From Xanthobacter autotrophicus (lineage in GTDB: Bacteria > Pseudomonadota > Alphaproteobacteria > Rhizobiales > Xanthobacteraceae), in assembly GCF_005871085.1 (NCBI RefSeq), contig NZ_VAUP01000042.1:62001-126000 (forward strand): 64,000 nucleotides of DNA, in the 5' to 3' direction. Positions within the stretch are counted from its first letter, which is position 1. Each line of letters starts with the position of its first letter. The position numbers and the translations under genes are program-made. This document shows positions 37,477 through 49,498 of this stretch, in pieces. The notes under the pieces were generated by a model. The model was not told where the DNA came from and did no database searches. It worked only from the letters and a program-made list of their open reading frames with translations.

Positions 37477-37807
37477 GATTTTCACCCGACCAATCTGGAA
37501 CACCCGGCGCGGAGGGTCAACGCTCAAGTCCGTGAAGCCTCGCCCCATGCCGCGCCGCATTGGGACGAGGACGGGAAGAATTTCGAGATCGCACGACGTT
37601 TCTATCCAAAGCTTGTAGCTGGATTGCATTGCAGCATGGCGGCGGCGGGAATTCTCGTGGAAACACGGGAAGTTGTCCCTCCGTTAATTGACATCATTCC
37701 AGTTCCAAAATACCGTCTACCAGGCGGAATTCCGGTATGAGTCCGGTCTCGGCGACCGCCTGAAATCGTCCCCGGTACGGGGCACAAAAGGTCGGAGGTT
37801 TCCTTCG
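37477..37807. other. divergent promoter region between the TlpA-like gene and fdoG
   Basis: No gene is supported in this 331-bp gap. It must hold promoters in both directions. The only good element I see is the sigma-70-like site at 37688-37716. No FixK/FNR box or sigma-54 site was found here. Confidence 0.5.
37688..37716 (+). promoter_or_regulatory. candidate sigma-70-type promoter of the fdo operon
   Basis: TTGACA at 37688-37693 is followed after a 17-bp spacer by TACCGT at 37711-37716. The -35 is perfect and the -10 is weak. Transcription would start near 37723 and leave a leader of about 85 nt before the fdoG ATG. Confidence 0.4.
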
Positions 37808-40800
37808 ATGAACATGGAGCTTTCGCGCCGCCAGTTTCTGAAAACGGCGGGCGCGGGCGTGGCGGGAACAACCCTTGGAGCGATGGGCTTCGGCGCCATC
37901 GAGGAGGCCTACGCCTCCACCATCAAGCCGTTCCGCCTCGTCGACACCACGGAAGTGCGCAACACCTGCACCTATTGCTCGGTGGCGTGCGGCATTCTCA
38001 TCTTCGCCAAGGGCAACCTCGCCAAGGGCGAGAAGGCCGACATCACCCATATCGAAGGTGACAGCGACCATCCCACCAATCGCGGCACGCTCTGCCCCAA
38101 GGGCGCGGCCCTGCTCGACATCGTCAAGTCCGAGACGCGCCTGCAATATCCCATGATCCGGCGCGCGGGATCCGACAAGTTCGAGCGCATTTCCTGGGAC
38201 GCGGCGCTCGACAAGATCGCGCGCGCGTTCAAGGACGATCGCGACGCCAACTTCATTGCCAGGAACAAGGACGGCGTGACCGTGAACCGGTGGACCACCA
38301 CCGGCTTCCTCGCCGCCTCGGCAACCACCAACGAAACCGCCTGGTGCACGTACAAGACCGTACGTTCGCTTGGCATGCTGGTGTTCGACAACCAGGCGCG
38401 GGTTTGACACGGCCCCACGGTGTCCAGTTTGGGCCCAACTTTTGGCCGTGGCGCGATGACCAATTCGTGGACCGACATCCGGAACACGGACCTCGTCATC
38501 ATCATGGGCGGCAATGCCGCTGAAGCGCACCCGTGCGGATTCAAATGGGTTACGGAGGCGAAAGCCAACCGTGGCGCCAAGCTCATCGTCGTGGACCCGC
38601 GCTTCACGCGCTCGGCCGCGGTGGCGGACTATTACGCCCCGATCCGGCAGGGCTCGGACATCGCGTTCCTCAACGGCGTCATCAATTATTGCATCGCCAA
38701 CGACAAGGTGCAGTGGGACTACGTGAAGGCGTTCACCAACGCCAGCTACATCGTCAAGGAAGGCTTCGCCTACAAGGACGGGCTGTTCACCGGCTACGAC
38801 GAGGAAAAGCGCGACTACAACCGCTCCACCTGGGACTATGAGATCGGTCCCGACGGTTATGCGGTGGTGGACGACACCCTCCAGCATCCGCGCTGCGTGT
38901 GGAATCTGCTGAAAGCCCACGTCGCCCAGTACACGCCTGAACTCGTGGAGCGCATCACCGGCACGCCGAAGGACAAGTTCCTGAAGGTGGCGTCGATGAT
39001 CTCGGAGTGCTCGTCCAAGACCAAGACGATGACCTCCATGTACGCCCTCGGCTGGACCCAGCATTCCAAGGGATCGCAGAACATCCGCACCATGGCGATG
39101 CTTCAGCTGATCCTCGGGAATATCGGCGTGCGCGGCGGCGGCATGAATGCGCTGCGCGGGCATTCCAACATCCAGGGGCTGACCGACGTCGGGCTCATGT
39201 CCAACATGATCCCCGGTTATCTCACCCTGCCCACGGAGCGGGAACCGGACTTCAACGCCTACATGTCCACCCGCGGCTTCAAGCCGCTGCGTCCCAACCA
39301 GATGAGCTACTGGCAGAACTACAAGAAGTTCTTCGTCAGTTTCCAGAAGGCCATGTGGGGCGACGCCGCGACCGCGGAGAACAATTGGGCGTTCGACTAC
39401 CTGCCGAAGCTCGACGTGCCGGCCTACGACATCCTGCGCGCCTTCGAGCTGATGAAGCAGGGCAAGATGAACGTCTATGTCTGCCAGGGCTTCAACCCCA
39501 TGCAGGCCTTCCCCAACCGGGGCAAGCTCGCCGAGGCGCTCGCCAAGCTCAAGCTGCTCGTGGTCATGGACCCGCTCCAGACCGAGACGGCCCGCTTCTG
39601 GGAGAACCACGGCGTCTACAATCCGGCGGACACGGCCAAGATCCAGACCGAAGTGATCCAGCTGCCCACCACCTGCTTCGCGGAGGACGAGGGCTCCCTG
39701 GTCAATTCCGGGCGGTGGATCCAATGGCACTGGCCGGCCGGCTCGCCTCCGGGCGAGGCGCGGACGGACGCCGCCATCATGTCCGGCATCCACCTGCGGA
39801 TGAAGGAGCTGTATCGCAAGGAAGGCGGCGCCTTCCCCGATCCCATCCTCAACCTGACGTGGACCTACAAGGACCCGCACGAGCCCACCGCCGTCGAGCT
39901 CACCAAGGAGCTGAACGGCTCGGTGCTCAAGGACGTGCTCGACCCGAACGATCCCACCAAGAAGGTCCTTGAGGCCGGCAAGCAGGTGGCGACGTTCGGC
40001 GTGCTGCGCGACGACGGCTCCACGGCGGCAGGCTGCTGGATCTATTCCGGCAGCTACACCGAGGCCGGCAACATGATGGCTCGCCGGGACAATTCCGATC
40101 CCGACGCCACCGGCGCCTACCTGAAATGGTCGTTCGCCTGGCCGGCGAACCGGCGCATCCTGTATAATCGCGCCTCCTGCGACATCGACGGCAAGCCGTG
40201 GGATCCCACGCGCAAGCTCATCGAGTGGGACGGGTCGAAATGGACCGGCTACGACGTGCCCGACATCGCCCCCACCGCCAAGCCGCAGGATGTGGGACCC
40301 TTCATCATGAACCCGGAAGGCGTCTCGCGCCTGTTCGCCCGGGGCATGATGCGGGAAGGCCCGTTCCCGGTGCACTACGAGCCGTTCGAGAGCCCGGTCG
40401 CCAACCTCATCGCCCCCAAGATCCGGGGCAATCCGGTGGCGCGCGTGTTCAAGGACGATTTCGCCCAGTTCGCCGACACGGCGTCCAAGGAGTTCCCCTA
40501 TGCGGCGACCTCCTACCGCCTGACCGAGCATTTCCACTACTGGACCAAGAACAACCACGTGAATGCGGTGCTACAGCCCGAATTCTTCGTGGAAATCTCC
40601 GAGGAACTGGCAAAGGAGAAAAGCATCAAGAATGCCGGATGGGTCCGGGTGTGGTCGAAGCGGGGTTCCGTCTTCGCCAAGGCCTATGTCACCAAGCGCA
40701 TCCGCCCGCTGATCGTGGACGGCAAGCCGGTGCACATCGTGGGCATCCCGATCCACTGGGGCTTCGTGGGCGCTGCGAAGAAGGGCTTCCCGGCCAACGT

Positions 40801-40894
40801 GCTCACCCCGTTCGTGGGTGACGCGAACATCGAGACGCCCGAGTTCAAGGCCTTCCTCGTCAACATCGAGCCCTCCACCGGGCCGGTGGCGTAA
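37808..40894 (+). CDS. fdoG: formate dehydrogenase, large subunit, selenocysteine-containing
   Basis: The 1028-residue Mo/W-bis-MGD enzyme oxidises formate to CO2 on the periplasmic side. It has a Tat signal (SRRQFLK, residues 6-12), the 4Fe-4S cysteines C54, C57, C61 and C96, and selenocysteine at residue 200. That codon is an in-frame TGA at 38405-38407 in the context NQARV-Sec-HGPTV, the exact active-site context of FdnG/FdoG. A SECIS hairpin follows at once. Read naively the gene splits into two frames (to 38407 and from about 38420). GGAGG lies nine bases before the ATG at 37808. fdoH and fdoI follow, giving the membrane-bound FdnGHI/FdoGHI type of enzyme. Confidence 0.97.
38405..38407 (+). 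other. UGA codon recoded as selenocysteine in fdoG
   Basis: The TGA sits where all enzymes of this family carry Sec or Cys as the molybdenum ligand. The protein sequence continues in the same frame with [19 protein letters not shown]. selA, selB, selC and selD are all in the window. Confidence 0.96.
38408..38450 (+). promoter_or_regulatory. SECIS element in fdoG mRNA
   Basis: Directly after the UGA, CACGGCC (38408-38414) pairs with GGCCGTG (38444-38450). At the top GTCCA (38422-38426) pairs with TGGGC (38430-38434), one pair being G-U, around the 3-nt loop GUU. A short stem of this kind with a GU-starting loop is what bacterial SelB binds, and E. coli fdnG has a matching shape. Confidence 0.88.
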
Positions 40895-42636: not shown

Positions 42637-42670
42637 CTTGCACGTGACCCGTGAGGTTCGTGAGGTTCAA

Positions 42671-43612
42671 ATGGTGCGTTCGTCAGGTCCGTTATCGAGC
42701 CCTCCCGGCTCCGTCTTTCCCGACCCCTCGGTGCTGGAAGGGGTCACCGCGCCCGCCTTCGCCCATCTGCCGGACCCGGCCAACCTGTTCGCGCGCCGCG
42801 CCGAGCGCTTCGCCCGGCTGGCGCAAGGCCATCCGCTCGGCCCCTACCTCTCCTTCCTGGCCCACATCGCCCGCGCCCAGCATGTGGCGGCGGAACGCGC
42901 CCCCGCGCCCGAGCCGGCCGATGCGGAAGCGGTGGAGCGCGCCCGCGCCCACGAGATGCCGCCGCTGGACCGCAGCCACTTCACCTCGGACGCGGCGTTC
43001 GAAGCCATTTTCGACCGGCTGTTGTCCCAGGCCCGCGCCATCGAGAAGCCGGAGCCGGCCGAGGCCGCGCTCGCCCACGTGCTGGCCGCCTCGGACGCCG
43101 AGCGCGGCGAGATGATCCGCAACGTGCTGGCCGATTCCATTCCGGTGGAGGCGCTGGCCGAGCATCTTTATATGGCAGCGGCGCTTCAGGTGCATTTCGC
43201 CCGCCGCGCCGCCCAGCTGGACGCCAAAGCCCTGGTGCCGGTGGGCGACGGCATCTGCCCGGCCTGCGGCGGCCCTCCTGTCGCGAGCGTGGTGGTGGAT
43301 TGGCCGTCGGCCGCCGGCGCGCGCTATTGCGCCTGCGCCCTGTGCGGCACGTGGTGGAACTTCGTGCGGGTGCGCTGCACCGCCTGCGGCTCCACCGGCG
43401 GCATCGCCTATCAGGAGATGGAAGGCGGAAACGGCGCCATCAAGGCCGAGACCTGCGACGCCTGCCATTCCTACGCCAAGGTGCTCTATCTTTCGAAAGA
43501 CCCCGATCTCGATCCCGTGGCCGACGACGTGGCCAGCCTCGGCCTCGACCTCAAGCAGAAGGAGGGGCCCTACCGGCGCTCCACCTTCAATCCCTTCCTG
43601 CTGGGCTATTGA
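42671..43612 (+). CDS. fdhE: formate dehydrogenase accessory protein
   Basis: The 313-residue protein has the FdhE cysteine pairs in its C-terminal half: CPACGG, CALCGTW, CTACGS and CDACHS, which bind iron (rubredoxin-like). FdhE is needed for activity of respiratory formate dehydrogenases, where it interacts with the catalytic subunit before export. The ATG at 42671 has GAGG seven bases upstream; a TTG at 42638 is the alternative. It lies between the structural genes and selA, only 10 bp before selA. No fdhD is in the window. Confidence 0.94.
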
Positions 43613-43622
43613 GGGGGGCGCC

Positions 43623-45065
43623 ATGTCCGCACACATTGCGTCATCCCACGCCGCCGCACCCCCCGCCGCACCCCTGCGCGTGCTGCCCTCCGTCGATGCC
43701 GTATTGAAGGCCGAGCTGGCCCGCGCCGCCACCGACCGCCACGGCCGGCAGGCCACCACCGCCGCGGTGCGCACCGCCCTCGACGAGCGCCGCGCCGCCC
43801 TGCGCGCCGGCGCCGGCGGCCCGGCGACACCTGATGAGATCGCCGCCAGCGCCCTCGCCCGGCTGGACGCTGCGGCGGCCCCCAGCCTCCGGCCGGTGTT
43901 CAACCTCACGGGCACGGTGCTGCACACCAATCTCGGCCGCGCCATCTTCGCGGAAGAAGCGGTGGAGGCGGCGGTGCGGGCCATGCGCAGCGCGGTCACC
44001 CTGGAATACGACCTCGACGGCGGCAAGCGCGGCGAGCGCGACGACCATGTGCGCGGCCTCGTCTGCGAGCTGACTGGGGCGGAAGACGCCACCCTCGTCA
44101 ACAACAACGCCGCCGCCGTACTGCTGGTGCTGAACACCCTGTCGCAGGGCAAGCCGGCCATCGTCTCGCGCGGCGAGCTGATCGAGATCGGCGGCGCCTT
44201 CCGCATGCCGGAGATTATGCGCCGGGCCGGCGCGGAGCTGGACGAGGTGGGCACCACCAACCGCACCCACGCCCGCGACTATCGCGACGCCATCCGCCCC
44301 GAGACCGGGGTGATCCTGAAGGTGCACACCTCCAATTACCGCATCGAGGGCTTCACTAAGGAGGTGTCGCCCCGCGAGCTGGCTGAGATCGCACAGGCCG
44401 GCGGGGTGCCGCTCGTGAATGATCTGGGCTCCGGCACGCTGGCGGACCTCACCCGCTACGGCCTCGTCCACGAACCCACGGTGCGCGAGGCGGTGGCTGA
44501 GGGGGCGGACATCGTCACCTTCTCCGGCGACAAGCTGCTGGGCGGCCCGCAGGCGGGCTTCATCGTGGGCCGGCGCGACCTCATCGCGCGGATCAACAAG
44601 AATCCCATGAAGCGGGCGCTGCGGCTGGACAAGGTGCGACTCGCGGCCATCGAGGCGACGCTACGCCTCTACCGCGACCCCGATCGCCTGGCCGAGCGTC
44701 TGCCCACCCTGCGATACCTCACTCGCCATCCAGAGGACATGGCCGCCCAGGCCGCGCGACTCGCGCCCGTCCTCGCCACCCTTCTCGGCCCTGCCTTCAC
44801 GGTTGACGAAACGTCATGTCGCAGCCAGATCGGTTCCGGTGCCCTGCCGCTGGAGACGCTGGAGGGGGTGGGTCTTGCCATTGCCAGCCGCGATGGCAGC
44901 GGCGGCGCGCTGAACCGGCTCGCCGATCGGTTGCGCCGACTGCCGGTTCCGGTGATCGGACGGATTGACGATAACGCTCTTGTGCTCGATTTGAGATGCC
45001 TTGAAGACGAAGCGGCGTTTCTTGCGTCCGTGACCGCTTTGGAGGGGGCTCATGAGCTGGCTTGA
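43623..45065 (+). CDS. selA: L-seryl-tRNA(Sec) selenium transferase
   Basis: The 480-residue PLP enzyme turns Ser-tRNA(Sec) into Sec-tRNA(Sec) with selenophosphate. It shows [14 protein letters not shown] near residue 94, the NDLGSGTL motif and PLP lysine K304 in [12 protein letters not shown]. The length and order match the family. GAGGGGGG precedes the ATG. It overlaps the next gene by 14 bp, so the Sel1-repeat protein is translated in coupling with it. Confidence 0.97.
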
Positions 45066-46434
45066 CCGATTGAAGGGCAAGGGGGGACCGGGCGAGACGC
45101 CGGAGGCCGGCGATCCGCCGCGCGAGCGCCCCTTCCCGCAACGCCCCCAGCGCCCGCCCGAGGAGACCGACCCGCCGGCGGAGGCGGACCTCGACGCCCT
45201 TCTGAGCGACATCGCCTCCGGCCTGTCGGGTAGCCGCGCCGCAAGCCCTGCCGCCGAGCCGGAGAGCCCGCTCCACCGCCGCCCCCGGCTCGACGAGCGC
45301 CCGCGCCAGGAGCCCGCGCCGGTGCCGCCGCAGTCTCCCCCCCGAGAGATGGCCTCCCGCGAGTTCTCTTCTCGAGAGTTCCCGACCCGCGAGGCGCCGC
45401 CCCGGCTTGCACCGACGCGCGAAGCCCATTCCCGCGACATCCCGGCCCGCGAGACGCCCGTCGTCGCCCCGCCGGCGGCGCGGGAACCCGAAGGGCCCGC
45501 ACGGGCCGAAGCCACCTTCGACGAAGCCACCTTCGACGAGGTGGAATTCGAGCGGCTGCTGGTGGCGGAGAACTTCGGCGACGAGCCGCCGTTCGATTCG
45601 CCCGTCCCCCCGACCGCGGACGCCGAGCCCCTGCCGGTCGAGGCCCTGCCCGAATCGGAGCCGGAGCCTGAGGTCCCCGAGGACACCCGCACGCCGGAGG
45701 CGCAGATGGCGGCCGCCCTCGCCGCCGCCACCGCCGGGGAATACGAAACCGCCCTGTCCATCTGGGAGCCGCTGGCGCGCACCGGCAATGCGCGGGCGCA
45801 GAACAATATCGGCGCCTGCTTCATCGACGGGCTGGGCGTGGACAAGGACCTGGACCTCGCCCGCCGCTGGCTGGAGCTGTCCGCCGAGGGTGGCGACCCG
45901 GTGGGCCGGCGCAACCTCGCCACCCTCTACTTCAAGGGCGAAGGCGTCGCCCAGGACTATGCCAGGGCCGCCGCGCTCTATCTCGCCGCCGCCGAGGATG
46001 GCGACGGCCCGGCCCAGGACATGCTGAGCTGGATGCTGCTGGAAGGCGAGGTCATCCCCGCCGATCCGGTGGAGGCGCGGCGCTGGGCGATGGCTGCGGC
46101 GGACCAGGGCATCGCCTCGTCCATGACGCGGCTGGGCATGATCGCCCACAATGCCCTCGGCATGGAGCGCGATGCGGTGGAGGCCGCCCGCTGGTGGCGC
46201 AAGGGTGCCGAGGCCGGCGACGCGGACGGGCAGGCCATGCTGGGCGCGGCCTGCCACATGGGTGTCGGGGTGCCGCGCGACCATATCGCCGCCTTCGCCT
46301 GGCTGCTGCGCGCCCGCGCCGGCAAGAGCGCGCTGGCGGAACGTTTCTTCGATGCCGTGCGCGCCAGCCTGACGCCGGAGGAGGAAGCCGCCGCCCAGCG
46401 TCGCGCCGCCATTCCGCTGGGGGAGCTGCCCTGA
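45052..46434 (+). CDS. Sel1-like (tetratricopeptide-type) repeat protein
   Basis: The 460-residue protein has a disordered N-terminal half (to about 215) rich in Pro, Glu and Arg, with repeated S-R-E-F/T-R-E words, and then five or so Sel1-like repeats (for example [22 protein letters not shown] and [20 protein letters not shown]). Sel1 repeats are protein-binding helical pairs; despite the name they have nothing to do with selenium. It lies between selA and selB with a 14-bp overlap and a 1-bp gap, so it belongs to the sel operon. A scaffold role in Sec synthesis or formate dehydrogenase assembly is inference. No signal peptide is seen. Confidence 0.8.
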
Positions 46435-46435
46435 C

Positions 46436-48568
46436 GTGATCATCGGCACGGCCGGACATATCGACCATGGCAAGACCACGCTGGTGCGTGCGCTCACCGG
46501 TGTCGATACCGACCGGCTGAAGGAGGAGAAGGCGCGGGGCATCTCCATCGACCTCGGCTTCGCCTACCTGCCTCTGGAGGGCGAGGAGGCGGGCGAAGCC
46601 CAAGCGCATGGCGATGAAGCCCGCCCTCCGGTGCTGGGCTTCGTGGACGTGCCGGGGCACGAAAAATTCGTGCACACCATGCTGTCGGGGGCCAGCGGCA
46701 TCGATTTCGCTTTGCTGGTGGTGGCCGCCGACGACGGGGTGATGCCCCAGACCCGCGAACATCTCGCCATTCTCGACCTCCTCGGCATCCGCCAAGGCAT
46801 CGTCGCCCTCACCAAGGCCGACCTCGTGGACGCCGGGCGCCGCGCCGCGGTGGAGGCGGAGATCGCGGCCCTTCTCGCCCCAACCGCCCTTGCCGGCGCG
46901 CCCATCCACCCCGTTTCCGCCACCACCGGCGAAGGCATCGCCGCCTTGCGCGACGCCCTCGCGGCGGCGGCGCGGCAGCTCGGTCAGCGGGCCGGCGGCG
47001 GGCGCTTCCGCCTCGCGGTGGACCGCAGCTTCACCCTCGCCGGGGCGGGAACGGTGGTGACGGGAACGGTGCTGTCGGGAACCGTCCGCGTGGGCGACCG
47101 GGTCGTCGTCAGCCCATCCGGCCTTGCCGCCCGCGTGCGCTCCATCCGGGCGCAGGACCGGGTGGCGGAGGAAGGCGTCGCCGGCGACCGCTGCGGGCTC
47201 AACCTGGCCGGCGAAGACATCAGCAAGAGCGCCATCGCCCGCGGCGACGTGGTGCTCGATCCGGCGCTGCACGCCCCCTGTGACCATATCGACGCCGAAC
47301 TCACCGTGCTGGCGGGCGAGAAGCGCTCCATCGCCCAATGGCTGCCGGTGCGCCTGCACCATGCGGCGCGGGAGGTGGGGGCGCGGCTGGTGCTGCTGGG
47401 CGATCCCATCGCCCCCGGCGCGTCGGCCAAGGTGCAACTGGTGCTGGAAGAGCCCATCGCGGCGGCGGTGGGCGACCGCTTCGTCATCCGCGACACCTCG
47501 GCTCAGCGCACCATCGGCGGCGGGCGCTTCCTTGACCTGCGTGGGCCCAAACGCAAGCGGCGCACCCCCGAGCGGCTGGCGCAGCTCTCCGCCCTCGCCG
47601 AGCGCGATCCCGCAACAGCTCTGGCGGCCTTGCTGGCCATCGACCCCTATTTCACGGACCTTACCGCCTTCGCCCGCGACCACACCCTCACCGCCGAGGA
47701 GACTGAGGCGCTGGCCGACCGCCTCGGCATCGTGAAGCTTGCGGCCGGCACGTCGACACTTGCCATCACCGCCAGCCGCTTCGCCGATTTCACCGGCCAG
47801 CTGCTGGCGGCGCTGCAGGCCTTCCACGCCGAGAATCCCGACCTGCCGGGCATGGGCCGCGAGCGGCTGCGCCTGCTGCTGGTGCCGCGCCTGCCCGCGC
47901 CGGCCTTCCTGTCCGCCCTGGAGAGCCTCGGCGACACGGTGAAGCGCGAGGGCGCCTGGGTGCGGCTGGCCGGCTTCGAGGTGCGCCTGTCCGCCGCCGA
48001 CGAGGCCCTGTGGAGCCGCATCGCCCCGCTCATCGGCGGCACCGAGCGCTTCCGTCCGCCGCGGGTGCGCGACCTCGCCAGCCTCCTCGGCGTTGCCGAG
48101 CCGGAGGTACGGCGCCTCATGAAGCTCGCCAGCCGCACCGGGCGGGCGGACGAGGTGGCTCACGACCATTTCTTCCTGCGCCCGGTGGTGGCCGAAATGG
48201 TGGAGATCCTGACACGCCTGTCCGGCCCGCGCATCAAGGACGAGTTCACCGCCGCCCAGTTCCGCGACGAGGTCTCCAATGGGCGCAAGGTGGCGATCCA
48301 GATCCTCGATTTCTTCGACCGCCACGGCGTCACCCTGCGCCGGGGCGATCTGCGCCGCATCAACCCGTTCCGGCTGGACCTGTTCGCCGGCTCGGGAAAT
48401 GATGCGACTTCCAGCGATTCGCCGGCGCCGTCGGCGCGGGGAAGAGAAGCGTCCCTGGTGGGGCGTCCGGACTTCAAATCCGGGAGGGGCCGCGAGCCGG
48501 TCCTTGGTGGGTTCGACTCCCACTCTCTTCCGCCAGATCCCCGAAAAGCCCTTGGAAAAGCCAAATGA
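46436..48568 (+). CDS. selB: selenocysteine-specific elongation factor
   Basis: The 710-residue protein carries Sec-tRNA(Sec) to the ribosome and binds the SECIS. It has the GTPase motifs [18 protein letters not shown] and TKAD, beta-barrel domains II and III, and C-terminal winged helices that bind the SECIS (last one [21 protein letters not shown]). The known fold ends near F650. The frame then runs on for 60 residues with no stop, through the whole selC gene, and ends in a TGA that overlaps the ATG of the next gene. A one-base shift would give a stop at 48400-48402, before selC. The start is GTG. Confidence 0.93.
48440..48535 (+). tRNA. selC: tRNA-Sec, anticodon UCA
   Basis: The 96-nt sequence has all tRNA-Sec marks: an 8-bp acceptor stem GGAAGAGA/TCTCTTCC, the anticodon loop CTTCAAA with TCA at 48474-48476, a long variable arm (GGGGCCGCGAGCCGGTCC), the T-loop GGTTCGACTCC and an encoded CCA end. 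It reads the UGA in fdoG. The gene lies wholly inside the 3' part of the selB reading frame. Confidence 0.97.
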
Positions 48569-49080
48569 CGCCGGAGCTTGAACAGGGCACCCAAGACGTC
48601 GCGCCCGAGGCCGCGCCCGCCGCGCCAGCGCCCGGCGTTTCATCACCCGCGCGCGTGGCCTTCCTCGCCCGCCTCGATGCGGCCAAGCACGACGCCGGCG
48701 TGGCCGAGACCGATTTTCGGCGCGAGGCTGCCGCGCGCATCGAACAGCTCGCCGCCGCCCGCGCCCATGCGTGGCGGCGCGCCGACCTCATGGCGGCGCT
48801 GGTCGCCGCCGTGGACGCAACCGAAGATGCCGAGATGGCGGTGGCCGCCGGTCAGGCGTTGCTGCGCACCCGGCTCGGCTGGACCTCCGACAGCGACGCG
48901 CGCACCGAGGTGCTCGCCCGCTTCGCCGCCGTCGCCCTGGCCCTCAGCGAGGCGGATGCCGGCGGCGATCCGCAGGCCGCTCTCGCCGCCTTCGAGGACT
49001 GGTACCTTGAAACCCGGCAGAGCCCATTCTGGTACCTGTTCGAGCACTATCTGAGCGACACGCCCCTGGTGGATTATTGA
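48565..49080 (+). CDS. hypothetical protein in the sel operon
   Basis: I do not recognise this 171-residue protein. It has an Ala/Pro-rich start, a helical, coiled-coil-like middle (VAFLARLDAAKHDAGVAETDFRREAA is part) and an aromatic C-terminus (FWYLFEHYLSDTPLVDY). No cysteine, signal peptide or metal motif is seen. Its ATG overlaps the end of the selB frame (ATGA), so it is coupled to selB and lies 30 bp after selC. The tight link suggests a role in Sec biology or formate metabolism, but nothing in the sequence proves it. Confidence 0.65.
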   Translation: MTPELEQGTQDVAPEAAPAAPAPGVSSPARVAFLARLDAAKHDAGVAETDFRREAAARIEQLAAARAHAWRRADLMAALVAAVDATEDAEMAVAAGQALLRTRLGWTSDSDARTEVLARFAAVALALSEADAGGDPQAALAAFEDWYLETRQSPFWYLFEHYLSDTPLVDY

Positions 49081-49090
49081 GCGTGCGGGC

Positions 49091-49498
49091 ATGCCCAAGA
49101 TGAAGACCGGTAAGATGAAGACCCGCAAAACCACGGATTTCGACCGCTGGCTGTCCGCCACCTATGGCGAGAACGGCAGCTTCACCGCGCTCGTGGTACT
49201 GGTGCGCATCGAGGAGCCGCAGGTGCTGCCGCTTGCCTCCACTTTCCTCAACATCGTGGGCGACGAGGTGAGCTGGGCCGAGGTCGCCGCCCTGTTCGCC
49301 GGTGCCCGGCAGACCTGGGACGGCGCGGCCTTCTTCGCCCAGCTCGATGCCGATGGCCCGCTGGAAAATGGGGAAGCGCGCGGACGCCTGCGGGCGCTGG
49401 AGCAGCGCCTCGACGCCGACCGGCTGGTGATCAACCAGGGCGACTTCTTCGACACCCAGGGCCGCCGGCTGAAGGTGGAGGAAATCTCCCCGAATTAA
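49091..49498 (+). CDS. hypothetical protein, last gene of the sel run
   Basis: I do not recognise this 135-residue protein. A basic start (MPKMKTGKMKTRKTTDFDRW) is followed by an alpha/beta-looking region (ALVVLVRIEEPQVLPLASTF) and a GDFFDTQGRRLKVEE end. No cysteine or signal peptide is present. It starts 10 bp after the 171-residue gene. A GTGCGGGC stretch precedes the ATG, with no strong ribosome site, so it is probably translated from the upstream gene's mRNA. The repeat copy at 49506 follows. Confidence 0.6.
   Translation: MPKMKTGKMKTRKTTDFDRWLSATYGENGSFTALVVLVRIEEPQVLPLASTFLNIVGDEVSWAEVAALFAGARQTWDGAAFFAQLDADGPLENGEARGRLRALEQRLDADRLVINQGDFFDTQGRRLKVEEISPN

Follow-up and report, generated by a model that had tools for sequence, protein, structure and literature searches.

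Why should the gene for tRNA-Sec lie wholly inside the reading frame of selB, which encodes the factor that carries this tRNA? The question is raised by a locus of Xanthobacter autotrophicus, found in a stretch of 64,000 nucleotides (NCBI RefSeq assembly GCF_005871085.1, contig NZ_VAUP01000042.1, positions 62,001 to 126,000) that is called the window here. Its selB ORF (46436–48568, + strand) runs from a GTG start to a TGA at 48566–48568 and encodes 710 aa. Residues 1–641, where the recognised SelB domains stop, matched the TIGR00475 selB profile with 406.2 bits, above the curated cut-off of 242.25, and the Pfam matches in the core were GTP_EFTU, the SelB beta-barrel, and winged helices. We placed the boundary of this core at residue 650 (F650, base 48385; core 46436–48385, + strand) because relatives are alignable up to that point. 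Three segments on the + strand then follow in the same frame: a linker of 18 codons (48386–48439), equal in length to those of the related loci L001, L002, L089, and L098; selC (48440–48535), which corresponds to selB codons 669–700; and the last 10 selB codons with the TGA (48536–48568). ARAGORN identified selC as a tRNA-Sec of 96 nt with the anticodon tca at 48440–48535 (+ strand), and the Rfam model RF01852 matched 48440–48531 (+ strand; 78.8 bits, E = 1.5e-14), exceeding the gathering score of 47 bits. The cloverleaf helices were also the minimum-energy fold, whether selC was folded alone or with 30, 60, or 120 bases of flank on each side.

The ORF list, ARAGORN, and Rfam agree with an earlier note on this DNA, which had described a selB frame open to 48568 with selC inside it in the sense direction. 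The stop lies 30 nt past the 3′ end of the tRNA (33 nt including the stop itself), and in the ATGA at 48565–48568 the TGA of selB shares bases with the ATG of a 171-aa ORF (48565–49080, + strand), an overlap that the note had read correctly. It had also placed a cut at the 5′ end of the tRNA after codon 668, and this follows by arithmetic, G1 of selC being the first base of codon 669. Its description of a tail of about 60 residues encoded mostly by the tRNA holds by a narrow margin, with selC providing 32 residues of the 60 that follow F650, only just a majority.

The surrounding genes on the + strand are fdhE (42650–43612; Pfam PF04216, PF24860, and PF24859; start uncertain, the listed ORF beginning at 42638), selA (43623–45065; Pfam PF03841, E = 9.7e-165), and a gene for a Sel1-repeat protein (45052–46434; Pfam PF08238, 112.3 bits). 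selA overlaps the Sel1-repeat gene, which ends one base before the selB GTG, and the overlap or near contact of these three genes suggests one operon. Farther upstream, a SECIS element (38402–38460, + strand; Rfam RF01989, 79 bits) lies within a frame (37688–40894) that is open once one TGA is read as Sec; judging from gene context, this frame presumably encodes the large subunit of formate dehydrogenase. What we take to be the start of a SelD-like protein is readable on the − strand at approximately 33.8–36.7 kb of the window, upstream of the formate dehydrogenase genes, and from its motif, GGGCGCK, it is presumably the cysteine form. Downstream of selB, the ORFs 48565–49080 and 49091–49498 matched no Pfam or NCBIfam family. 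The genome contains one tRNA-Sec at E ≤ 1e-11 and one full-length SelB, so the selC of the window has to supply the cell. It also encodes a tmRNA (RF01849, 295.3 bits), and rescue from nonstop messages is thus possible.

Nesting of selC in selB, with overlap of the stop and start codons, has been reported in Alphaproteobacteria, the first example being Azorhizobium caulinodans (Mukai, 2021; PMC8124441). The nested tRNAs described there measure 96 or 93 nt, both of which preserve the reading frame, and “in many cases” the start codon of the following ORF shares bases with the selB stop. The window shares with these loci an entire sense-oriented tRNA-Sec within the selB frame, the tRNA length of 96 nt, the selB stop over the next start, and formate dehydrogenase and selA genes upstream, as seen from FdhE, SelA, the Sel1 repeats, and the SECIS element, with the subunits judged by context. 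The legend of Figure 3 in PMC8124441 mentions a Sel1-like protein, and a Sel1-repeat gene is also present in the window. We found no difference between the two, and the locus is a further member of a kind that has been in print since 2021. The same paper offers as a hypothesis a nonstop-mRNA model in which tRNA processing represses SelB, so the earlier note had re-derived a published finding together with its mechanism. The text of PMC8124441 (figures aside) makes no mention of the genus Xanthobacter, nor did we find in it a statistical test of the frame or the word “synonymous.” Among related arrangements, Dyella, Luteibacter, and a Nitrospirae lineage have a partial selB/selC overlap, in which selB likewise enters selC in sense but stops within the tRNA at nt 46–48, whereas the stop of the window lies beyond it (PMC8124441). 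A further case cited there is that of Armadillidium vulgare, in which a whole mitochondrial tRNA-Lys is reported to lie in sense within the cox1 frame, and it has been proposed that either the tRNA is excised or the protein is made (PMC8124441). In that case the mitochondrial genome is compact and the protein unrelated, whereas in the window a tRNA and its carrier factor share a gene. In the portions available, reviews of 2022 and 2026 repeat the finding (PMC13188914, PMC9312934), PMC12685816 cites it in passing, and none of these open-access sources, including PMC8124441, describes an experimental test of nesting.

Applied to the window, the published model would work as follows. selC would most likely be made from an operon transcript that also carries selB, the co-transcription being suggested by the gene arrangement. 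A ribosome completing selB would read across the tRNA and terminate at the TGA overlapping the next ATG. If the tRNA were folded and excised first, presumably by RNase P cutting its 5′ side after codon 668, the message for SelB would be left without a stop, and the downstream gene would also be stripped of its leader. One transcript would therefore tend to yield either tRNA-Sec or full-length SelB; SelB would be lost from cut messages, and the supply of SelB might be balanced against that of tRNA-Sec. A scan of 47900–48700 found no sigma-70-like promoter or intrinsic terminator, and because shuffled sequences gave only 0.0 and 0.7, this result is uninformative and was counted in favor of the model as weak evidence.

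As the earlier note had proposed, we compared the ends of selB across relatives. From 299 sequences (298 fetched loci and the window), 187 distinct selB–selC loci were kept, the window included; left out were 57 without a related SelB C-terminus (seven of which, L104–L110, had no tRNA-Sec by ARAGORN either), three without a tRNA-Sec within 1,500 nt after SelB, two running off the contig, and 50 duplicates. For 40 of the 187 loci, the 5′ end of the tRNA was repositioned on the basis of acceptor-stem pairing. selC was nested in 120 loci, whereas selB stopped inside selC in 14 and before selC in 53. Counted by source with duplicates kept, nesting was found in 59 of the 80 loci chosen by SelB similarity, a choice that biases the sample toward nesting, and in 94/125 loci from the family, 6/29 from the order, and 2/54 from the class. 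The 54 class-wide loci comprised the two nested loci, one partial overlap, 25 in which selB stopped before selC, and 26 without a related SelB beside selC. A FastTree tree of 186 SelBs (L255 left out) implied at least 18 changes between the nested and non-nested states, counted regardless of direction, 12 of them forced by well-supported branches; 51 of the 183 inner branches were poorly supported, so change counts on this tree are rough. Nesting thus appears to be dispensable or recent in places, which we counted against the excision model.

Several loci were unusual in other respects. Several genomes of one genus (code g50; G278, G282, G289, and G305) have two or three strong tRNA-Sec genes each. 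G278 holds L161, L164, and L210, and G282 holds L160 and L177; L164 and L177 are nested, in L160 selB stops before selC, and L210 lacks a related SelB next to its tRNA-Sec gene. G009, which belongs to the genus of the window, holds L084 and L153, with a second, divergent SelB beside the nested locus; this second SelB (∼41% identity over the aligned part) has its own selC and is not nested. The records of L031 and L075 are titled Mycobacterium sp. KBS0706 and Candidatus Eremiobacteraeota, and their SelBs are 66% and 60% identical to that of the window; selC is nested in L031 and partly overlapping in L075. These two records are perhaps misnamed or come from contaminated assemblies.

The comparison practically eliminates a one-base sequencing slip near 48390–48400 hiding a stop before selC, which the earlier note had raised because of an off-frame TGA at 48400–48402 (present, as the end of ORF 48010–48402), since genus relatives share the frame with linkers of 54 nt (L001, L002) or 51 nt (L003, L004), L003 comes from a complete chromosome, and all 12 closest distinct loci, with SelB C-termini ≥ 70% identical and the window included, are nested.

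The extended frame, which that note had suspected to be real, is common to independent genomes, and its phase is conserved. In 119 of the 120 nested loci, the first base of selC coincides with a first codon position of selB, despite 28 different linker lengths ranging from 9 to 144 nt; the single exception is L127, with a linker of 47 nt. With 5′ ends determined from pairing, every one of the 120 nested selC genes is 96 nt long. Among the 53 loci in which selB stops earlier, the three phases occurred 19, 15, and 19 times, and the selC lengths ranged from 92 to 98 nt, 36 of them being 96. Disjoint pairs of relatives with different linker lengths and SelB C-terminal DNA ≥ 72% identical gave a similar result independently of the tree: the difference in length was a multiple of 3 in 33/33 nested pairs vs. 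5/13 non-nested pairs. On the tree, the nested loci required at least 61 length changes and one phase change, vs. 47 length and 22 phase changes for those 62 non-nested loci whose selC lies no more than 300 nt away. A GC-rich, stopless stretch without any role would account for an open frame as such, with a probability of ∼0.20 for 60 open codons past the SelB core at the base composition of the window, and in 159 loci not only the true frame (120) but also the two shifted frames (96 and 84) were open to the end of selC. Since shifted frames are so often open, however, selecting nested loci alone does not create the phase lock. The openness of the frame in the window by itself is unremarkable; the excess over chance lies in the phase kept in relatives, on which we reject chance, regarding it as highly improbable. 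Based on these results, the frame through selC looks to be kept by selection.

We next consider what such selection might preserve. The substitutions in the linkers showed a synonymous excess in the SelB frame: pN/pS was 0.77 upstream of selC (95% interval 0.63–0.91; 31 pairs), with 1.05 and 0.92 in the shifted frames, and 0.64 downstream (0.50–0.87; 28 pairs), with 0.94 and 1.56 in the shifted frames. For pairs ≥ 70% alike, the values were 0.55 upstream (0.38–0.77; 18 pairs) vs. 1.50 and 0.83 in the shifted frames, and 0.64 downstream (0.43–1.03, an interval that reaches 1; 23 pairs) vs. 0.76 and 2.63. The frame is thus kept and probably translated. That pN/pS is below 1 in both linkers would also be expected if the linker and the tRNA-encoded tail were a functional part of SelB, but in the same pairs the core had a pN/pS of 0.20–0.22, the linker varies widely in length, and 53 of the 187 loci end SelB before selC, so we consider this explanation improbable. 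Linker differences were spread nearly evenly over the three codon positions (123/128/154 upstream and 47/35/57 downstream), which indicates that the tail is at most weakly conserved, and its peptide seems to be under weak constraint. The composition by codon position (GC1/2/3 of 0.71/0.62/0.66 upstream and 0.63/0.74/0.66 downstream, vs. 0.75/0.44/0.83 in the core) carried no coding signature in either linker, and this non-coding-like composition was counted against the excision model.

The most serious rival is that the frame is kept for translational coupling, in which ribosomes must reach the end of selB for the downstream ORF to be translated and selC merely lies between; Mukai also suggested such coupling (PMC8124441). 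When start overlap was judged from the letters at the selB stop alone, ATGA occurred in 66/120 nested vs. 4/67 non-nested loci, and ATGA, GTGA, TTGA, or a one-base overlap in 86/120 vs. 32/67, a difference that we counted against the excision model. However, among the nested loci that lack an overlapping start, the phase was kept in 34/34 cases, with at least 18 length changes and no phase change. A looser coupling or reinitiation would be compatible with 27 of these 34 loci, in which a frame of ≥ 60 codons starts somewhere from −60 to +80 nt of the stop, but the other seven have no such start. Overlap with the next start thus does not seem to be the whole reason for the kept frame, and we consider coupling an unlikely, although by no means negligible, explanation.

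In 133 of the 187 loci, selB stops 3′ of the point at which the tRNA begins, as the nonstop model requires, and this does not hold in the other 54. Of the 133, 126 are in phase, comprising 119 nested loci and seven with the stop inside the tRNA; ten nested loci stop just one codon past the CCA (6 nt including the stop). Seven in-phase loci stop at a TGA inside the tRNA, at nt 46–48 (L060, L064, L075, L170, L174, L183, and L251); such stops are thus also found in the family (L170, L174, L183) and class (L251) of the window. Among the contrary results, seven frame-shifted loci also stop 3′ of the cut (L127; L025, L139, and L140; L067, L156, and L162). The latter two groups enter selC with the frame shifted by one or two bases and stop inside the tRNA (nt 22 or 47); L025 and L067 are titled Ancylobacter, and the two groups perhaps represent a recent loss of nesting. 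Considering the phase kept without an overlapping start together with these 133 stops, we tentatively suggest that what selection mainly keeps is a selB stop located 3′ of the site cut by RNase P; every tRNA-Sec excised would then destroy one SelB message. What is preserved might in that case be a hard-wired ratio of SelB to tRNA-Sec, and not chiefly a tail peptide or start overlap, although we would not give this interpretation an even chance.

Overall, a nested selB/selC of the kind described by Mukai (2021), in which excision of the tRNA would compete with translation of SelB, fits the genomic data best, and we hold it to be somewhat better than an even bet. We observed directly that selC is nested, that nesting also occurs in relatives, and that the frame across selC is conserved, and we counted in favor of this excision model the 120 nested loci, the phase lock, the pair test, the tree counts, and the synonymous excess in the SelB frame of the upstream linker, together with the single tRNA-Sec and SelB of the genome, its tmRNA, and the published model itself. 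The interpretation in the earlier note is partly supported: its extended frame is upheld, and the RNase P cut with a nonstop message that it envisaged would agree with our results. New here is quantitative evidence that appears to reflect selection on the frame and that overlapping starts do not seem to explain fully. The nesting and the proposed mechanism were both published in 2021, and this evidence makes the printed hypothesis worth an experiment. If it is true, a bacterial gene whose transcript yields either a tRNA or its carrier factor would balance the two in an unusual manner.
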